Positions 2,720 to 43,328 of a stretch of 64,000 bases of DNA are shown here, piece by piece; positions within the stretch are counted from its first letter, which is position 1; each line of letters begins with the position of its first letter. The notes under the pieces are model-generated. The model searched no databases. It saw only the letters and a program-made list of their open reading frames with translations, and was not told the origin of the DNA. Origin of the DNA: Bradyrhizobium sp. RD5-C2 (GTDB taxonomy: Bacteria; Pseudomonadota; Alphaproteobacteria; Rhizobiales; Xanthobacteraceae); assembly GCF_019972155.1 (NCBI RefSeq), contig NZ_BOVL01000007.1:186001-250000 (forward strand), in the 5' to 3' direction. Position numbers and translations under genes: made by a program.

Positions 2720-3480
2720 AGATCCTGCTGCTCAATCCCAACACGACCGCGGCAGTGACGGATCTGCTCCATGCCGCCGGCAGCAAGGCGGCATCAGCCG
2801 GCACCGAGCTCGTGCCCGCGACCGCCTCGCGCGGCGTGCCTTATATTGCGACCCGCGCCGAGGCGCAGATCGGCGGCGCAATCGCGCTGGAGATGCTGGC
2901 GGAGGCCAGCCCGGGCATCGATGCCGCCATCATCGCGGCGTTCGGCGATCCCGGCCTGTTCGGCGCGCGCGAGCTGTTTGCGTTTCCGGTGGTCGGATTG
3001 GCCGAGGCCGCGATGCTCACCGCCTGCATGCTCGGCCGCCGGTTCTCGATCGTGACCTTCGCCGGCGCGCTGGCGCCCTGGTACGAGGAGTGCGTCGCCA
3101 TGCACGGGCTGAGTTCACGCTGCGCCGGCATCCGCACGCTCGACGGTGGCTTCCAGTCGATCTCCGACGTCCAGGCCGAGAAGGAGGAACTGCTGGTCGC
3201 ACTCGCCAACCAGGCGGTCGAACAGGACGGCGCCGACGTCGTGATCCTGTCAGGCGCGCCGCTCGCCGGCCTTGCCGCAAAGGTCCGCGACCGCATTCCG
3301 GTGCCCGTGGTGGATCCTGTCGCGGCCGCCGTGCGCCAGGCGGAGACGCTTACCGTGCTCAAGCCACGCAAGTCGGTCGCCGGCACTTTCCGCCGGCCCG
3401 ATCCAAAACCGACGATCGGGCTGGCCGAGCCGCTTGCCGCCATCATCGAACATCGCTCACCGAAAGAGGGGACGGACTGA
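2716..3480 (+). CDS. Hydantoin/allantoin racemase-family protein lacking both catalytic cysteines
   Basis: 254-residue member of the Asp/Glu/hydantoin racemase family. The start K-I-L-L-L-N-P-N-T is the family N-terminus, and the gene directly precedes the hydantoinase, the usual HyuE position. However, the two catalytic cysteines are absent. The first motif (A-C-F-x-D-x-G-L in family members) reads A-A-F-G-D-P-G-L with Ala75, and the second (L-G-C-A-G-M) reads L-S-G-A-P-L with Gly180. Surrounding structural residues are kept, so this looks like a diverged subfamily rather than decay. It may be a non-racemase enzyme or a binding/regulatory homologue. The start overlaps the gntR stop by 4 bp and the stop shares one base with the hydantoinase ATG. 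Confidence 0.75.
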   Translation: MKILLLNPNTTAAVTDLLHAAGSKAASAGTELVPATASRGVPYIATRAEAQIGGAIALEMLAEASPGIDAAIIAAFGDPGLFGARELFAFPVVGLAEAAMLTACMLGRRFSIVTFAGALAPWYEECVAMHGLSSRCAGIRTLDGGFQSISDVQAEKEELLVALANQAVEQDGADVVILSGAPLAGLAAKVRDRIPVPVVDPVAAAVRQAETLTVLKPRKSVAGTFRRPDPKPTIGLAEPLAAIIEHRSPKEGTD

Positions 3481-4892
3481 TGTCCTTCGACACCATCATC
3501 CGCGGCGGCACCGTCGTGACCGCTGCCGACACCTTCGCCTGCGACGTCGGAATCCGTGACGGCAAGATCACGGCGCTCGGTCACGATCTCGGCGATGCGG
3601 CCGAGATCATCGACGCCACCGACCGGCTGGTGCTGCCCGGCGGCATCGACAGCCACGTCCATTTCGCCCAGCCGTCGGGCGACGGCATCGTGATGGCCGA
3701 CGGCTTCGCCAGCGGCACCCGCTCGGCGGCGTTCGGCGGCAACACCACCGTGCTGCCGTTCTGCCTGCAGGAGAAGGGCCAGACGCTGCGCGAGGCGCTC
3801 AAGCACTATCATTCGTTGGCCGAAGGCGAATGCCATGTCGACGTCGCTTTCCATCTGATCGTCACCGATCCGACCGAGCATGTGCTGGGCCAGGAGCTCC
3901 CGGCGCTGGTCGAGGACGGTTACACCTCGCTGAAAGTCTTCATGACCTATGAGGGGCTGGCGCTGTCGGATCGCGAACTACTCGAGACCATGTCGGTCGC
4001 GCGCGAGACCGGCGCAATGTTGATGGTGCATGCGGAAAACTTCGATGCCATCCGCTTTCTCACCGACCGGCTGGAACGCGCCGGCAACACCGCGCCGCGC
4101 TTCCACGCGACCTCGCGGCCGATCCCGGTCGAGCGCGAGGCCACCCATCGCGCCATTTCGCTGTCAGAGCTCGTCGACGTGCCGATCATGATCGTGCATG
4201 TCTCGAATCGCGAAGCGATGGACGAGATCCGCCGCGCCCAGCAGCGGGGCTTGCGGGTGATGGGTGAAACCTGCCCGCAGTACCTGATGCTCACCGAGAA
4301 AGATCTCGATCAGCTCAACATGGAGGGCGCAAAGTACGTCTGCTCGCCGCCGCCGCGCGATGTCGCCAGCCAGCAGGCGTGCTGGGAAGGCCTGCAGCAG
4401 AAAGTGTTTTCGGTGTTCTCGTCGGACCATTGTCCGTTCCGCTACGACGACCCGCAAGGCAAGCTCGCGCCCAAGGGGCGAACCAGCTTCCGCTGGGTGC
4501 CGAACGGCATCCCCGGGGTGGCGACGCGGCTGCCGATCCTGTTCTCCGAAGGCGTGGTGAAGGGGCGCATCGACCTCAACAGCTTCGTCGCCTTCAGCGC
4601 CACCAACCACGCCAAGATCTACGGCCTCTATCCGCGCAAGGGTACGATCGCGGTCGGCTCGGATGCCGACATCGCGCTGTGGGACCCGAAGCGCAAGGTG
4701 ACGATCCGCCACGAGCTGATCCATGACGGCTCGGACTACACGCCTTATGAAGGGCTCGAAGTCACGGGCTGGCCGGTGATGACCATGGTGCGCGGCAAGG
4801 TGGTCGTCGACGACGGCACGCTGGTCGGCAGCAAGGAGCACGGCACATATCTGCCGCGCGCCAAGCCGCCGTCCGCCGCAACCATTCCGTGA
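3480..4892 (+). CDS. hydA: Dihydropyrimidinase / D-hydantoinase
   Basis: 470-residue cyclic amidohydrolase that hydrolyses dihydropyrimidines or 5-substituted hydantoins to N-carbamoyl amino acids. The binuclear metal site is complete: His59 and His61 (S-H-V-H-F), the lysine to be carboxylated at 152 (S-L-K-V-F-M-T-Y), His184 (M-V-H-A-E-N), His240 (I-V-H-V-S-N) and Asp316 (S-S-D-H-C-P-F). Length is normal for the family. The start is the ATG that shares a base with the upstream stop; the frame stays open far upstream but that part overlaps two other genes and is not coding. No carbamoylase gene is visible in the window, so the next catabolic step must be encoded elsewhere or be done by the alpha/beta hydrolase downstream. 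Confidence 0.92.
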   Translation: MSFDTIIRGGTVVTAADTFACDVGIRDGKITALGHDLGDAAEIIDATDRLVLPGGIDSHVHFAQPSGDGIVMADGFASGTRSAAFGGNTTVLPFCLQEKGQTLREALKHYHSLAEGECHVDVAFHLIVTDPTEHVLGQELPALVEDGYTSLKVFMTYEGLALSDRELLETMSVARETGAMLMVHAENFDAIRFLTDRLERAGNTAPRFHATSRPIPVEREATHRAISLSELVDVPIMIVHVSNREAMDEIRRAQQRGLRVMGETCPQYLMLTEKDLDQLNMEGAKYVCSPPPRDVASQQACWEGLQQKVFSVFSSDHCPFRYDDPQGKLAPKGRTSFRWVPNGIPGVATRLPILFSEGVVKGRIDLNSFVAFSATNHAKIYGLYPRKGTIAVGSDADIALWDPKRKVTIRHELIHDGSDYTPYEGLEVTGWPVMTMVRGKVVVDDGTLVGSKEHGTYLPRAKPPSAATIP

Positions 4893-4934
4893 TACGAAGG
4901 ATACTACCCGCGAACCAGAAGGCAGGAGACCACC

Positions 4935-5819
4935 ATGCCCTACGCGACGACAGATGACGGCTTGCGGCTCTATTTCGAGGAGACCGGATCCGGCCATCCG
5001 GTGATCCTGGTCCATGAATTCGCCGGCGATTTGCGCAGCTACGAGCCGCAGATGCGGCATTTCGGCAAGCGCTTCCGCACCATCGCCTACAATGCGCGCG
5101 GCTTTCCGCCGTCCGACGTGCCCGAGCAGGTCTCGTCCTACTCGCAGGCGCGTGCAGCCGACGATATTCTTGCCGTGCTCGATCACATCGGCGCGCCGAA
5201 GGCGCATATCATCGGCCTCTCGATGGGCGGTTTTGCAACGCTGCATTTCGGCATCCGGCATCCGGCGCGCGCATTGTCGCTGTGTATCGGCGGCTGCGGC
5301 TATGGCGCCGAGCTCGACAAGCGCGAGACGTTTCGCGCCGAAGCCGACGTGATCGCAGCTACGATCCGCAAGGAGGGCATGCCGGCGTTCGCCGAGCGCT
5401 ACGCCTACGGGCCCACGCGCGTGCAGTACGAGAACAAGGACCCGCGCGGCCACGCCGAGTTCAAGACCATGCTGGCCGAGCACTCGGCGGTGGGATCGGC
5501 CAACACCCAGCAGGGCGTCCAGAAGGAGCGTCCCTCGCTCTACACGCTGGTCGACGAGATGAAGCGCATCACCGTGCCGACGCTGATCATCACCGGTGAC
5601 GAGGATTGGCCGTGTTTGCTGCCGGGCATCTTGATGAAACAGAGCATCCCGTCGGCCGCGCTCGCCGTGATGCCGAACTGCGGCCACGCCATCAACATCG
5701 AGGAGCCCGACGAATACAACCGGATCGTCGGCGAATTCCTGTCGCAAGTCGAAAGCGGCCGCTGGCCGCAGCGCGATCCCAGAGCGATGAGTGCCTCGAT
5801 CACGGGGATGAAGGGTTAG
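4935..5819 (+). CDS. Alpha/beta hydrolase
   Basis: 294-residue alpha/beta-fold hydrolase without signal peptide. The nucleophile elbow is G-L-S96-M-G-G, the likely acid is Asp222 or Asp224 (T-G-D-E-D) and the base is His251 (C-G-H-A-I-N). Style resembles 3-oxoadipate enol-lactonase or C-C hydrolases. It lies 42 bp after the hydantoinase with a good ribosome site (GGCAGGAGACCACC before ATG) and probably ends the catabolic operon. Its role in this pathway (hydrolysis of an ester, lactone or amide product) is inference from position. Its last 20 bases overlap the 3' end of the convergent NTF2-like gene. Confidence 0.85.
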   Translation: MPYATTDDGLRLYFEETGSGHPVILVHEFAGDLRSYEPQMRHFGKRFRTIAYNARGFPPSDVPEQVSSYSQARAADDILAVLDHIGAPKAHIIGLSMGGFATLHFGIRHPARALSLCIGGCGYGAELDKRETFRAEADVIAATIRKEGMPAFAERYAYGPTRVQYENKDPRGHAEFKTMLAEHSAVGSANTQQGVQKERPSLYTLVDEMKRITVPTLIITGDEDWPCLLPGILMKQSIPSAALAVMPNCGHAINIEEPDEYNRIVGEFLSQVESGRWPQRDPRAMSASITGMKG

Positions 5820-6207
5820 GCTCGGGGCGCAATTGCCCCGTGCTCAAATGCTCGTGCGCAATCAGCCAACCGGATGGCTCTTTGCGAAACACTCTGGTTC
5901 CTCGGCCATCTCCGCCAATGTTCTCGCCGCGGACCCTGCCGGTCCATGCGAAGCTGTAGATGACGGCGGCCGAGGTGTCGGATTGCGTGATCCAGATCGA
6001 TTCCAGGGTCGCGTAGTTGTAGTTATCGACCAGCTTCCAATTGGCCTGCATTGTGGAGGCGAAAGCGTCCCTGCCGCATATTGCCGTCCCGTTGCTATAG
6101 AACAGCACGACGTCATCGGTGAGAAATGTCAGCGCGGAATGGATGTCCCTCTCGATCAACGATGCAGTAAAATCGGCCATGCAAGTCTGTGGCGTGTTTG
6201 CGGGCAT
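5800..6207 (-). CDS. SnoaL/NTF2-like domain protein (DUF4440-type)
   Basis: 135-residue single-domain protein of the NTF2-like/ketosteroid-isomerase fold. It has an N-terminal helix pair, the F-L-T-D-D-V-V-L-F-Y-S-N-G segment, an I-C-G-R-D-A-F region and a C-terminal beta-rich part ending W-L-I-A-H-E-H-L-S. Such proteins bind small hydrophobic ligands or act as isomerases or hydrolases; nothing here fixes a reaction. The gene is convergent with the alpha/beta hydrolase (20 bp overlap) and lies 143 bp beyond the end of the SDR gene on the same strand, so it may be read from the same promoter. Confidence 0.75.
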   Translation of the reverse strand: MPANTPQTCMADFTASLIERDIHSALTFLTDDVVLFYSNGTAICGRDAFASTMQANWKLVDNYNYATLESIWITQSDTSAAVIYSFAWTGRVRGENIGGDGRGTRVFRKEPSGWLIAHEHLSTGQLRPEPNPSSP

Positions 6208-6350
6208 GTCTGCTCTCTGTTCTCAGCGGCGAATTGCGATAGGAGAAAATCGGCGCAATGCGGCGAGATCCTGGGTGATCCCGAGACCGCTGCCCTGATT
6301 GGCCTCGGTGACCAAGCTGATGCATTCGTCTTGAGTAGCGGTCTCCATTC

Positions 6351-36552: not shown

Positions 36553-37509
36553 TCAGTTCGGCACCCGGCTGTGCCGCCAATCGCGCGGAGAAAGGCCGTA
36601 ATGGTCGCGGAATACGCGGCCGAAATGCGAGAGATCGTTAAAGCCCCAGGCGAACGCAATCTCGCCGATGTGGCGATGCGCGTGTGCCGGTGAGGCGAGG
36701 TCGCGCTTGCAGCGCTCCAGCCGCTGCGCCAGCACGAAGCGCTGGAATGAAGTGTCCTCGTCGGCCAGCAGGCTGTTGACGTAGCGCGGCGAGATGCCGA
36801 GCGCCGCGGCGGTCTCGGTGAGGCTGAGCTCGGGGTTGGGCAGATGCGCGAGCACATGCGCCTTCAGCCGGTAGAGCAGGGCGGAGCGGTGGGTCGAGGC
36901 CGGTAGCGCCGCGCCGCCGAGCCGCTCGCTGATCGCCATCGCGAGCAGGTCGGCGGCCTGATCGGCGAGGCGGATCGCATTATCCGGATCGAGCTTGTCG
37001 GCGATCTCCGAGAGCCCGCTGATGAAATGCCAGGCGAGCCGCTGCACCGGGCGATCCGATGTGAATGTGGTCGCCGTCAGGCTCTGGGTGCCGGCAAAGC
37101 GCCGGTGCAGCATCGCGCGCGGCACCTGGAAGATGGTCTGCGTGAAGTCGTCGTTGAAGCGCAGCTCATACGGGCGCGTGGTGTCGTAGAACGCAAACTC
37201 GCCCGGCTGGATCACGGTCTCGCGGCCGTCCTGCACGACGGCGCCCGCGCCACTTTGGCCGAGCGCGAACAGAACAAAATCCTCGCTGGTGCGTGCGATC
37301 CGCGACGGCGTGCGCAGCACGCGCTGCCGGCCCGACGAGACGACGGAGCATTTCACCGTGCCGAGTTGCGCGCTGGTGATGGCGCCGTGGAAGGCGGTGC
37401 CGAGATCGGACTTGCAGTCGAGTTGCACGAACACGTCACAGACGATGTCGCGCCAGAGTGCCAGGCGCCGATGCGTGGGCGCGACTTCCGTGGTGAACAG
37501 GGCCGGCAT
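36553..37509 (-). CDS. AraC-family regulator (AraC-binding-like domain), probable NitR-type regulator
   Basis: 318-residue regulator: an N-terminal AraC_binding_2-type domain (about 30-190, with W-R-D-I-V-C-D-V-F and Q-P-G-E-F-A-F-Y-D-T-T-R-P-Y) and a C-terminal AraC/XylS double helix-turn-helix (about 215-315, with S-L-T-E-T-A-A-A-L-G-I-S-P-R-Y and H-I-G-E-I-A-F-A-W-G-F-N-D-L-S-H-F). A strong GGAGG precedes the start. It is divergent from the nitrilase/aldoxime dehydratase genes, matching the position of NitR-like activators in known aldoxime-nitrile clusters. Confidence 0.88.
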   Translation of the reverse strand: MPALFTTEVAPTHRRLALWRDIVCDVFVQLDCKSDLGTAFHGAITSAQLGTVKCSVVSSGRQRVLRTPSRIARTSEDFVLFALGQSGAGAVVQDGRETVIQPGEFAFYDTTRPYELRFNDDFTQTIFQVPRAMLHRRFAGTQSLTATTFTSDRPVQRLAWHFISGLSEIADKLDPDNAIRLADQAADLLAMAISERLGGAALPASTHRSALLYRLKAHVLAHLPNPELSLTETAAALGISPRYVNSLLADEDTSFQRFVLAQRLERCKRDLASPAHAHRHIGEIAFAWGFNDLSHFGRVFRDHYGLSPRDWRHSRVPN

Positions 37510-37529
37510 GAATTCCTCCCTTCACGAGT

Positions 37530-37550
37530 GCAAACGCTGGCCACGCAAAC
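37530..37550 (+). promoter_or_regulatory. Direct repeat, candidate AraC-regulator site
   Basis: GCAAAC occurs at 37530-37535 and again at 37545-37550, starts 15 bp apart. It lies in the gap between the AraC gene and the nitrilase gene. AraC-type proteins bind direct repeats of about this spacing. The motif is short, so support is weak. Confidence 0.25.
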
Positions 37551-37717
37551 AAGGCAAGCTTCGTACCGGGGACGGCCGGGGGAATCGCCTCCGCAGTCGA
37601 ATTTTCCTTCCGTCCTGGTCGAACGGCGTTCCCGGTCCCGGGGCAGCATGATGTCAGAGGCCGCTAGGCCCGATCAAGTACGAACCGGCCAGAGTGGCCG
37701 CCTGCGAGGAGGACAAC

Positions 37718-38725
37718 ATGGGCATCGAACATCCGAAATATCGCGTTGCGGTGGTGCAGGCCGCGCCTGCCTGGCTCGACCTCGACGCCTCCATCGCCAA
37801 GAGCATTGCCTTGATCGAGGAGGCCGCCGCCAAGGGGGCCAAGCTGATCGCGTTCCCCGAGGCCTTCATCCCCGGCTATCCCTGGTACATCTGGCTGGAC
37901 TCGCCGGCCTGGGCGATCGGGCGCGGCTTCGTGCAGCGCTATTTCGACAACTCGCTGAGCTATGACAGCCCGCAGGCCGAGAAGCTGCGGCTCGCCGTGA
38001 AGAAGGCCGGCATGACCGCGGTGCTCGGCCTGTCCGAGCGCGACGGCGGCAGCCTCTATTTGGCGCAATGGCTGATCGGGCCCGACGGCGAGACCATCGC
38101 CAAGCGGCGCAAGCTGCGGCCGACCCACGCCGAGCGCACCGTCTACGGCGAGGGCGACGGCAGCGATCTTGCGGTGCATGACCGCCCTGGCATCGGCCGC
38201 CTCGGCGCGCTGTGCTGCTGGGAGCATCTGCAGCCGCTGTCGAAATACGCGATGTACGCCCAGAACGAGCAGGTGCATGTCGCGGCCTGGCCGAGCTTCT
38301 CGCTGTACGATCCGTTCGCGCCGGCGCTCGGCTGGGAGGTCAACAACGCGGCCTCGCGGGTCTATGCGGTTGAAGGCTCGTGCTTCGTGCTGGCGCCCTG
38401 TGCGACGGTCTCGCAGGCGATGATCGACGAGATGTGCGACCGCGACGACAAACACGCGCTGCTGCATGTCGGCGGCGGACACGCCGCGATCTACGGGCCG
38501 GACGGCAGCTCGATCGCCGAGAAGCTGCCGCCCGACCAGGAGGGCCTGCTGCTCGCCGATATCGATCTCGGCGCGATCGGGGTCGCCAAGAACGCCGCCG
38601 ACCCGGCCGGGCATTATTCGCGGCCCGACGTCACGCGCCTGCTGCTGAACAAGAAGCCATCGAAGCGCGTCGAGCATTTCGCGCTGCCGCTCGACATCGA
38701 AGAGATCGACGCGGCCGCGAGCTGA
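37718..38725 (+). CDS. Nitrilase (carbon-nitrogen hydrolase)
   Basis: 335-residue aliphatic or arylaceto-type nitrilase converting nitriles to carboxylic acids and ammonia. The catalytic triad is Glu48 (F-P-E-A-F), Lys132 (R-K-L-R-P-T-H-A-E) and Cys167 (L-C-C-W-E-H), with the typical nitrilase P-G-Y-P near residue 52 and the C-terminal G-H-Y-S-R-P-D. Start ATG 37718 with GAGGAGG 6 bases upstream. It is followed 30 bp later by the aldoxime dehydratase, so the product of that enzyme is its likely substrate. Together they form an aldoxime to nitrile to acid pathway that releases ammonium. Confidence 0.93.
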   Translation: MGIEHPKYRVAVVQAAPAWLDLDASIAKSIALIEEAAAKGAKLIAFPEAFIPGYPWYIWLDSPAWAIGRGFVQRYFDNSLSYDSPQAEKLRLAVKKAGMTAVLGLSERDGGSLYLAQWLIGPDGETIAKRRKLRPTHAERTVYGEGDGSDLAVHDRPGIGRLGALCCWEHLQPLSKYAMYAQNEQVHVAAWPSFSLYDPFAPALGWEVNNAASRVYAVEGSCFVLAPCATVSQAMIDEMCDRDDKHALLHVGGGHAAIYGPDGSSIAEKLPPDQEGLLLADIDLGAIGVAKNAADPAGHYSRPDVTRLLLNKKPSKRVEHFALPLDIEEIDAAAS

Positions 38726-38755
38726 ACGCCTGACATCAAACCGGAGGCGACTGCC

Positions 38756-39808
38756 ATGGAATCCGCGATTCCCTCTCATCTGCAAACAGCGCGCTCCCGT
38801 CATCGTCGTGTGCCCGACGATTACGCGCCGCCTTATCCCTCGTTCGTCGCGCGCCACAAGCCCGCGGTCGCAAGCGTCATCATGGCCTATTTCGGCGTGC
38901 AATATCGTGGCGAGCCGACCGCCGCGGTGGCCGAGGCACTGGCACTGATCGCAATGCGCTTTGCCGGTGAGAACGGCCCGACGCATTGGGACCGCGCGCA
39001 ATATGTCGACCAGGCCGGCTTCTCCAACGTCGTCTCGGTCGCCTATTGGGACGATGCCGGGCGTTTCGATAGCTGGTTCGAGGCCGCGCGCGAGGCCTGG
39101 ACTGGCAGCGGCGCCAGCGATGGCGTCGGCCGCTTCATCGAGGTGCTACGGCCGAATGTCGAGCGTTACGAGACTTTGTTCTCGTCGCTCGGCCGCCCCG
39201 AGGGCGTCGCGGTCCTTGCCGACGGCATGAGCGCCGAGGTGCAGGAGCATGCGTACTGGGGCGGCATGCGCGACCGCATCCCGCTGTCGCAGACTGACGC
39301 GATGACGCCCGGCGGCGAACCGCGCGTGATCCGCGACGGCGCGCGCATCCGGGTGGTCGCGCATGACAATCTGTGCCTGATCCGTTCCGGCCAGGACTGG
39401 AGCGACACCGAGGCGTCGGAGCGCAAGATGTATCTCGACGATGTCGAGCCGGTGCTGCGCGAGGGCATGGATTTCCTGCGCGACGACGGCGTGCCGATCG
39501 GCTGCTACGCCAACCGCTACATGCGCGTCGTCGATGCAGATGGACGGTTGACGGAAAAGTCCTACGGCCAGAGCTGGTGGAAGTCTCTCGCGGCGCTGGA
39601 GCGCTGGGCGGAATCGCATCCGACCCATGTCCGGATCTTCGGCGCGGCGATGAAGTATCTGTCGACCTTGGGACCGGCCGCAAAGCTCAGGCTGTATCAC
39701 GAGGTCACGGTTGCCGCCGCCGACGAGCAGTTCTTTGAGTATCTCGGCTGCCACGAACGAACCGGCATGCTGGGCGCGGTACAGGTGGAGGCTGCACCAG
39801 CCCGCTGA
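38756..39808 (+). CDS. oxd: Heme-dependent aldoxime dehydratase (phenylacetaldoxime dehydratase)
   Basis: 350-residue cytosolic b-type heme enzyme that dehydrates aldoximes to nitriles. Family landmarks: P-P-Y-P-S-F and the A-Y-F-G-V-Q-Y segment early, T-H-W-D-R-A-Q-Y-V-D, and Y-W-G-G-M-R-D-R-I-P (Arg172/174, counterpart of the catalytic Arg). Further on are I-R-S211-G-Q-D-W (catalytic Ser), H-P-T-H291-V-R-I-F (proximal heme ligand) and L-R-L-Y-H315-E-V (distal His). These positions fit the characterised Rhodococcus and Pseudomonas enzymes as I recall them (Ser219, His299, His320). GGAGGCGA precedes the ATG. Cotranscribed with nitrilase. Confidence 0.92.
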   Translation: MESAIPSHLQTARSRHRRVPDDYAPPYPSFVARHKPAVASVIMAYFGVQYRGEPTAAVAEALALIAMRFAGENGPTHWDRAQYVDQAGFSNVVSVAYWDDAGRFDSWFEAAREAWTGSGASDGVGRFIEVLRPNVERYETLFSSLGRPEGVAVLADGMSAEVQEHAYWGGMRDRIPLSQTDAMTPGGEPRVIRDGARIRVVAHDNLCLIRSGQDWSDTEASERKMYLDDVEPVLREGMDFLRDDGVPIGCYANRYMRVVDADGRLTEKSYGQSWWKSLAALERWAESHPTHVRIFGAAMKYLSTLGPAAKLRLYHEVTVAAADEQFFEYLGCHERTGMLGAVQVEAAPAR

Positions 39809-42307: not shown

Positions 42308-43237
42308 TTACGCGACGCGCAGGCCCTTCGCGATTTCCTTCTGCGCATCGAACTCGCGGCGCAGGCGGGCCAGCTCCTCGGCGCTCAGTGCGTCGGCGTT
42401 GCTGTAGTCGCGCTTCCAGGACGCGTCCTCGCTCCAGCGCAGCGGCGATTGCACGGTGGTCTGCGGGCCGGGCGCAGTTTCCAGCACGCGCAGCGCGAGC
42501 TCCAGCGTGAACGCCTGCGAGGCGACGTCGTGCGGCTTGCCGGCGGAATTGCCGAGCGGGAAATCGGAGAACAGGAAGCGTGGCACCGCGGCGTGCTCGA
42601 CGATATCCTTGGCGCAGCCCATCACGACGGTCGGGATGCCGTTGGCTTCGAGATGCCGCGCCACCAGGCTGACGGTCTGGTGGCAGACCGGGCAGTTCGG
42701 CACGAGCACCGCGACGTCGACCTTGTCGTCGCGGCAGCGCTTGAGGATTTCCGGCGCGTCGGTCTCGATAGTGACGCGGTGGCTACGGTTGGTCGGGGCC
42801 CCGAAGAAGCGCGGCGCGACTTGGCCGATTTTGCCGGCCGCGGCGAGGCGCTTGAGTTGCGGCAGCGGGAACCAGGTGCGGCTGTCGGTCGCCGTGGTAT
42901 GGGTGCGGTCATATGCGATGTGCGAGATTCGCAAATCGTGTTCCTCAGACGTGTGGCCGTCATAGACCGCATAGAATTTTGCCCCGCCATTGTATTTCGC
43001 GCCGGGGCCCTGGTCGCCTTTGGCGGGATCGAACGGCGCCGCGGTCGTGATGATGGCGACGCGGGACTGGCTCAGGGGCTTCTGCAGAGGTTGGAACGGG
43101 GCGGAGGTGTAGTGCGCCCAGCGGTAGGGGGTGGTGTAGCCGATCGCCGCATAATAATCGCGGGTCCGCTTCATGTAGCCGATCGGGGCGTCGTCGTCGG
43201 GGGCAAAGCCGAGTTGATCGTCTGAGGCTGCGGCCAT
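42308..43237 (-). CDS. Glycine/betaine/D-proline reductase selenoprotein B-like protein, cysteine form
   Basis: 309-residue soluble protein resembling the GrdB/PrdB-type selenoprotein B family. The key region is V-A-V-L-V-P-N-C182-P-V-C185-H-Q-T, where selenoenzymes carry selenocysteine in a U-x-x-C motif. This is followed by L-E-A-N-G-I-P-T-V-V-M-G-C and A-A-V-P-R-F-L-F. The CxxC suggests redox activity. Anaerobic glycine-reductase partners (GrdA, GrdC/D) are not present, and the organism is presumably aerobic, so the reaction must differ. Start ATG 43237 with GGGAG upstream. It lies beyond the aldoxime-nitrile and LysR/transporter modules on the reverse strand. Confidence 0.65.
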   Translation of the reverse strand: MAAASDDQLGFAPDDDAPIGYMKRTRDYYAAIGYTTPYRWAHYTSAPFQPLQKPLSQSRVAIITTAAPFDPAKGDQGPGAKYNGGAKFYAVYDGHTSEEHDLRISHIAYDRTHTTATDSRTWFPLPQLKRLAAAGKIGQVAPRFFGAPTNRSHRVTIETDAPEILKRCRDDKVDVAVLVPNCPVCHQTVSLVARHLEANGIPTVVMGCAKDIVEHAAVPRFLFSDFPLGNSAGKPHDVASQAFTLELALRVLETAPGPQTTVQSPLRWSEDASWKRDYSNADALSAEELARLRREFDAQKEIAKGLRVA

Positions 43238-43328
43238 TTTGCGCTCCCTTTTGCGCGCCATCATTTCAGTCCATAGCTAGACCACGAGCTTGCGGTGTCA
43301 AGCCGCGCCGCGCGGGAACAGATTTGCG

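Follow-up and report, generated by a model that had tools for sequence, protein, structure and literature searches.

The closest described relative of the locus analysed here is the NitR-nit-oxd cluster of Bradyrhizobium sp. LTSPM299, whose aldoxime dehydratase is OxdBr1 (PMC8955678). In the accessible part of that report, oxd is described as having, in both Bacillus and Bradyrhizobium, two upstream genes whose products are probably a nitrilase and NitR, a regulator of the AraC type; the activity of OxdBr1 is published, with a specificity resembling that of OxdB and OxdRG, and a part in breaking plant defences or in supplying IAA is considered possible for aldoxime-nitrile pathways. The three-gene set of Bradyrhizobium, together with the ideas of detoxification and auxin formation, was thus in print by 2022. 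Three aliphatic aldoximes and one aryl-aliphatic aldoxime are given as excellent substrates of OxdBr1, and one oxime as not accepted, in the available text of PMC10107818. In Bacillus sp. OxB-1, an oxd-nit cluster with an AraC-like regulator is inducible by phenylacetaldoxime and has the same AraC, nitrilase and Oxd components as the locus described below (PMC4342420). The aldoxime clusters of Rhodococcus and Pseudomonas chlororaphis B23 share the first step, carried out by an OxdA-type enzyme, whereas they are stated in the accessible part of PMC8955678 to use a nitrile hydratase and an amidase instead of a nitrilase.

The window, a stretch of 64,000 nucleotides from the genome of Bradyrhizobium sp. 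RD5-C2 (8.26 Mb in 73 contigs), carries the same three kinds of genes as the LTSPM299 cluster, in the same genus. An earlier note on this DNA had described a nitrilase and an aldoxime dehydratase with an AraC regulator transcribed divergently from them; all three genes are intact, and their exact coordinates are collected in Table 1. The locus is a real, intact and ordinary member of the published aldoxime-nitrile pathway. Its likeness to OxdBr1 is read through third enzymes rather than head to head, OxdBr1 standing at about 47% to Rhodococcus/Pseudomonas-type enzymes in the available text of PMC8955678 and the window Oxd at 46% to OxdA.

Table 1. Features of the aldoxime-nitrile module, in window positions
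Feature	Position	Strand	Length	Details
AraC-family regulator (NitR-like)	36553..37509	-	318 aa	divergent from nit-oxd; AraC_binding_2 + HTH_18
Candidate operator GTCGAA-N16-GTCGAA	37596..37623	+		half-sites 37596-37601 and 37618-37623, 22 bp apart
Nitrilase, arylacetonitrilase-type	37718..38725	+	335 aa	CN_hydrolase; Glu48/Lys132/Cys167
Heme aldoxime dehydratase, OxdBr-like	38756..39808	+	350 aa	Dehydratase_hem; Arg174/Ser211/His291/His315

The regulator belongs to the AraC/XylS family, with an AraC-type DNA-binding domain containing two helix-turn-helix motifs and an effector domain (Pfam HTH_18, 7.4e-20, and AraC_binding_2, 1.3e-29, both above their gathering scores). Its best NCBIfam model is FeaR (NF007243), where its 146.7 bits fall below the cut-off of 199 and leave it outside that family. 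The nitrilase (CN_hydrolase, 1.7e-52, above the gathering score) is placed in the true nitrilase branch by this domain, by its Glu-Lys-Cys triad and by its nearest relatives, which are characterised nitrilases, and its best PDB match is NitA (6zby, E 1.1e-127, 61% identity). Oxd is a member of the Dehydratase_hem family (PF13816; 1.7e-84, 284.3 bits against a gathering score of 25), with OxdA as its best PDB match (3w08, E 9.2e-103, 46% identity). The enzyme of Bacillus sp. OxB-1, from another phylum, is distant: chain 7f2y, which we take to be the Bacillus phenylacetaldoxime dehydratase, matches the window Oxd at E 1.5e-51. No curated specific name is assigned to either enzyme because both score below the corresponding curated cut-offs, Oxd with 411.9 bits against 600 for the OxdA equivalog (NF050090, aliphatic) and the nitrilase with 228.4 bits against 502.6 for the Nit6803 family (TIGR04048).

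The full nitrilase triad and the heme and catalytic residues of Oxd, also reported in the earlier note, were confirmed residue by residue. The window has the complete triad together with Glu139, as do 80 of 80 orthologous loci, these being the best 80 of 136 found, picked by similarity to Oxd. The same 80 loci all keep the four Oxd residues Arg174, Ser211, His291 and His315, equivalent to Arg178, Ser219, His299 and His320 of OxdA, among which His299 is presumably the heme ligand. Catalytic roles of the three others are described for OxdA in the accessible part of PMC5391958.

The starts of the divergent regulator and nitrilase genes are separated by 208 bp, the nitrilase begins with an ATG preceded by GAGGAGG, and oxd follows the nitrilase stop after 30 bp. 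Among the best 80 of the 136 loci, nit lies directly upstream of oxd on the same strand in all 80, with a gap of at most 130 bp; L039 and L044 have the longest gaps (124-130 bp), those of the remaining 78 loci being no longer than 90 bp. In 78 of these 80 loci the regulator gene is transcribed divergently; L111 has it on the same strand as nit and oxd, and L079 has none nearby. The divergent 78 include L087 (B. barranii subsp. apii 1S5), where an insertion, which we take to be IS66-like, splits the regulator gene at about 3175-6290 and leaves nit and oxd intact; this is a natural regulator loss. In Bradyrhizobium sp. dw_411 (L079, L139), the nearest relative of the regulator (55-56%) is encoded on a contig other than that of nit-oxd; L139 and L135 are the same regulator gene.

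Most of these loci come from one genus, 77 of the best 80 of 136 being titled Bradyrhizobium, including the closest 27, and the rest Frankia, Bradyrhizobiaceae or Xanthobacteraceae. The contig titled Frankia sp. RB7 (L059) bears a Bradyrhizobium-like locus (Nit 89%, MFS 82%), pointing to a record that is mislabelled or mixed. Of 265 Bradyrhizobium genomes, 185 have a Dehydratase_hem match (183, all strong, when two weak ones are set aside), as do 21 of 397 genomes of an order-wide sample, 11 of the 21 being the source genome and others of Bradyrhizobium. With such a module in about seven of ten Bradyrhizobium genomes searched, it would seem that the genus routinely meets plant oximes and nitriles in soil, as a resource or a hazard, and that the trait is not tied to symbiosis alone. 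Beyond its own family, the three-gene arrangement recurs in one genome from the same taxonomic order (L123, L140), with Oxd at 66%, Nit at 70% and AraC at 42% over its first 96 residues. Among the best 80 of 136 loci, 59 have clpA on the same fetched stretch and 73 have an MFS gene conserved at more than 70%, and this shared neighbourhood therefore suggests that the locus may occupy an old chromosomal place.

Aligning the nit upstream regions revealed a conserved block, in which GTCGAA-N16-GTCGAA is proposed as a candidate operator, new here. No mention of an operator was found in the accessible part of the account of the LTSPM299 cluster (PMC8955678), and a literature search combining aldoxime dehydratase, nitrilase and direct repeat found none in print, although an earlier description is possible. 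The 123 loci with Oxd and a nitrilase of at least 65% yielded 101 distinct nit upstream regions, related orthologous sequences rather than independent samples, and an exact GTCGA pair spaced by 22 bp is present in 90 of them. Between 15 and 40 bp, the only other spacings in these 101 regions are 35 and 36 bp, seen once each. The 22-bp pair appeared in 62 of 3160 random 330-bp windows from the same loci, a control in which the operator itself could fall inside, and in none of 3062 windows from 80 loci with the nit upstream region left out. In that second control, counts averaged 10 per spacing, the highest being 61, at 21 bp.

Anchoring on a TTTT-NN-TTC core made 91 of the 101 regions readable, the other 10 having no strict core. 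The half-site pairs of the 91 are GTCGAG/GTCGAG (53), GTCGAA/GTCGAA (20), GACAAG/GACAAG (4) and near-matches (14). In eight single sequences from divergent lineages, 22 bp did not stand out in an unanchored scan of repeats at all spacings, so the repeat in those lineages rests on position-matched comparison. The out-of-family locus L123 shows, to the eye, GTCAAG and GGCAAG spaced by 22 bp, a motif picked after the fact. Searching the source genome with the long operator pattern, at up to two mismatches, gave three sites, the only perfect one being that of the module and the others having two mismatches; the reversed pattern gave zero sites in the same genome. The candidate operator is a useful and directly testable addition, and gives a direct route to the signal that the regulator responds to.

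The GACAAG-N16-GACAAG form replaces the GTCGA-type repeat in L111, L119, L120 and L122. These loci form one lineage, and the change therefore counts as one concerted event. Their regulator lies on the same strand as nit, as seen in L111 and read from partial matches in L119, L120 and L122. L007, identical to L079 in its upstream sequence, has a CACAAG/GACAAG pair. When the window regulator and 75 others of the common type were compared with four of the variant type (L111, L120, L122 and L135, L119 being too partial), 12 of 95 aligned positions differed, counting those shared by at least 90% of the common type against four of four. With recognition helices assigned, as we assume, after the MarA and AraC structures, the second helix carries S294A, G297S, V299I and R301K (window numbering), each separating 76/76 from 4/4 regulators. 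Three differing positions (244, 245 and 248) fall in the first recognition helix and five outside both stretches. The first-helix change from VN to AS was ruled out as GACAAG-specific: AS is found in 3 of the 76 common-type regulators, those of L045-L047, which have the GACAAG-lineage letters at 244 and 245 although their loci keep exact GTCGA pairs. It is tentatively proposed, with somewhat less than even likelihood, that the regulator reads the 22-bp-spaced repeat and that its specificity switched once in Bradyrhizobium, from GTCGAA/G to GACAAG, a change tracking the four second-helix substitutions and the inversion or relocation of the regulator gene. The GACAAG case is one testable switch event and not a new kind of system; if the switch is true, it would provide two natural sensors of plant aldoximes or nitriles that may be orthogonal.

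The conserved direct repeat might instead be a promoter or some other element, a reading in favour of which speaks the conserved TTTT-NN-TTC core sitting between the half-sites. This is somewhat unlikely, since both half-sites change alike where the second recognition helix of the regulator has changed, and the spacing of two helical turns is usual for dimers of the AraC family. Very probably the locus is the Bradyrhizobium aldoxime-nitrile pathway, in which Oxd and then the nitrilase act under a NitR-like regulator that would bind the repeat. Homology and gene order lend good support to the conversion of aldoximes to acids named in the earlier note. The heme Fe(II) enzyme Oxd would form nitriles by dehydrating arylacetaldoximes and alkylaldoximes, its substrates most likely being plant compounds similar to phenylacetaldoxime, and the Glu-Lys-Cys nitrilase would hydrolyse the resulting nitrile to an acid and ammonia. 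The divergent regulator most likely binds GTCGAA-N16-GTCGAA as a dimer and would activate nit-oxd in response to an aldoxime or nitrile. The acid may serve as a carbon and nitrogen source and the pathway in detoxification; such a catabolic and detoxifying role is the plainest reading. The source genome also encodes the phenylacetyl-CoA oxygenase PaaA of phenylacetate breakdown (549.7 bits), and catabolism is therefore favoured over auxin making. Three more relatives of the nitrilase (36-39% identity) and, elsewhere than in the module, a nitrile hydratase alpha subunit are encoded as well.

A different emphasis would make cyanohydrin-type nitriles of cyanogenic plants, mandelonitrile for example, the main substrates of the nitrilase, with Oxd as a side entry. 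Indeed, nitrilases of Bradyrhizobium USDA110, ORS278 and BTAi1 hydrolyse mandelonitrile, as stated in the available text of PMC3599355, and in most of the less related loci among the best 80 of 136 conservation is higher for the nitrilase (about 89%) than for Oxd (about 79%). This is nevertheless unlikely, as Oxd is linked to this nitrilase in 80 of 80 loci, although these were found through Oxd. As for auxin, OxdBr1 is reported in the accessible part of PMC8955678 to be similar to OxdB and OxdRG, acceptors of indole-3-acetaldoxime, so that formation of auxin from this compound by the module is possible. That its main natural role is to turn plant indole-3-acetaldoxime into indole-3-acetic acid acting on the host appears quite improbable: a related Bradyrhizobium nitrilase is reportedly best on mandelonitrile and phenylacetonitrile (same source, accessible part), and the locus itself gives no pointer to indole over phenyl substrates. 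The rhizobial background invoked earlier holds for the genus but not for this genome, where a search matching NodA in 163 of 265 Bradyrhizobium genomes had zero matches and where no nifH scored above the cut-off (best 24.4 bits against 394.35). The pair of nodA and nifH that marks a nodulating rhizobium was thus not found in the source genome; canonical symbiosis is therefore not implied for it, which also speaks against the auxin role. Oxd is commoner in genomes with a strong NodA match (118 of 139) than in those without (65 of 126), an odds ratio of 5.3 in a count that ignores kinship and leaves out 24 weak NodA and two weak Oxd matches. This association would favour the auxin role, whereas the 65 genomes with Oxd and no strong NodA count against it; because phylogeny is ignored, it is not used as evidence for a symbiotic role.

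Two sites considered as regulon targets were rejected. The C21 site was dropped, as it falls within a long open frame with the look of a glycosyltransferase gene. The C19 site (GTCGAA...GACGA, L137 2334-2360), which ends 71 bp before an MFS gene, was not counted as a target, being kept in close relatives only. The best family of that gene is aromatic acid/H+ symport, with 160.9 bits against a cut-off of 418.55, and among 117 genomes searched it occurs in 13 besides the source genome. Six close genomes (92.5-95%) keep the site, two of them with a single-base change in the second half-site; the seven genomes at 80-81% lack it at that place, and the block there has the appearance of a different motif. 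Near the module, a relative of PrdB/GrdB-like reductase subunits is encoded on the minus strand at window positions 42308-43264 (TIGR04483, 89 bits, below the cut-off of 300), and it lies on the same stretch in 20 of the best 80 of 136 loci.
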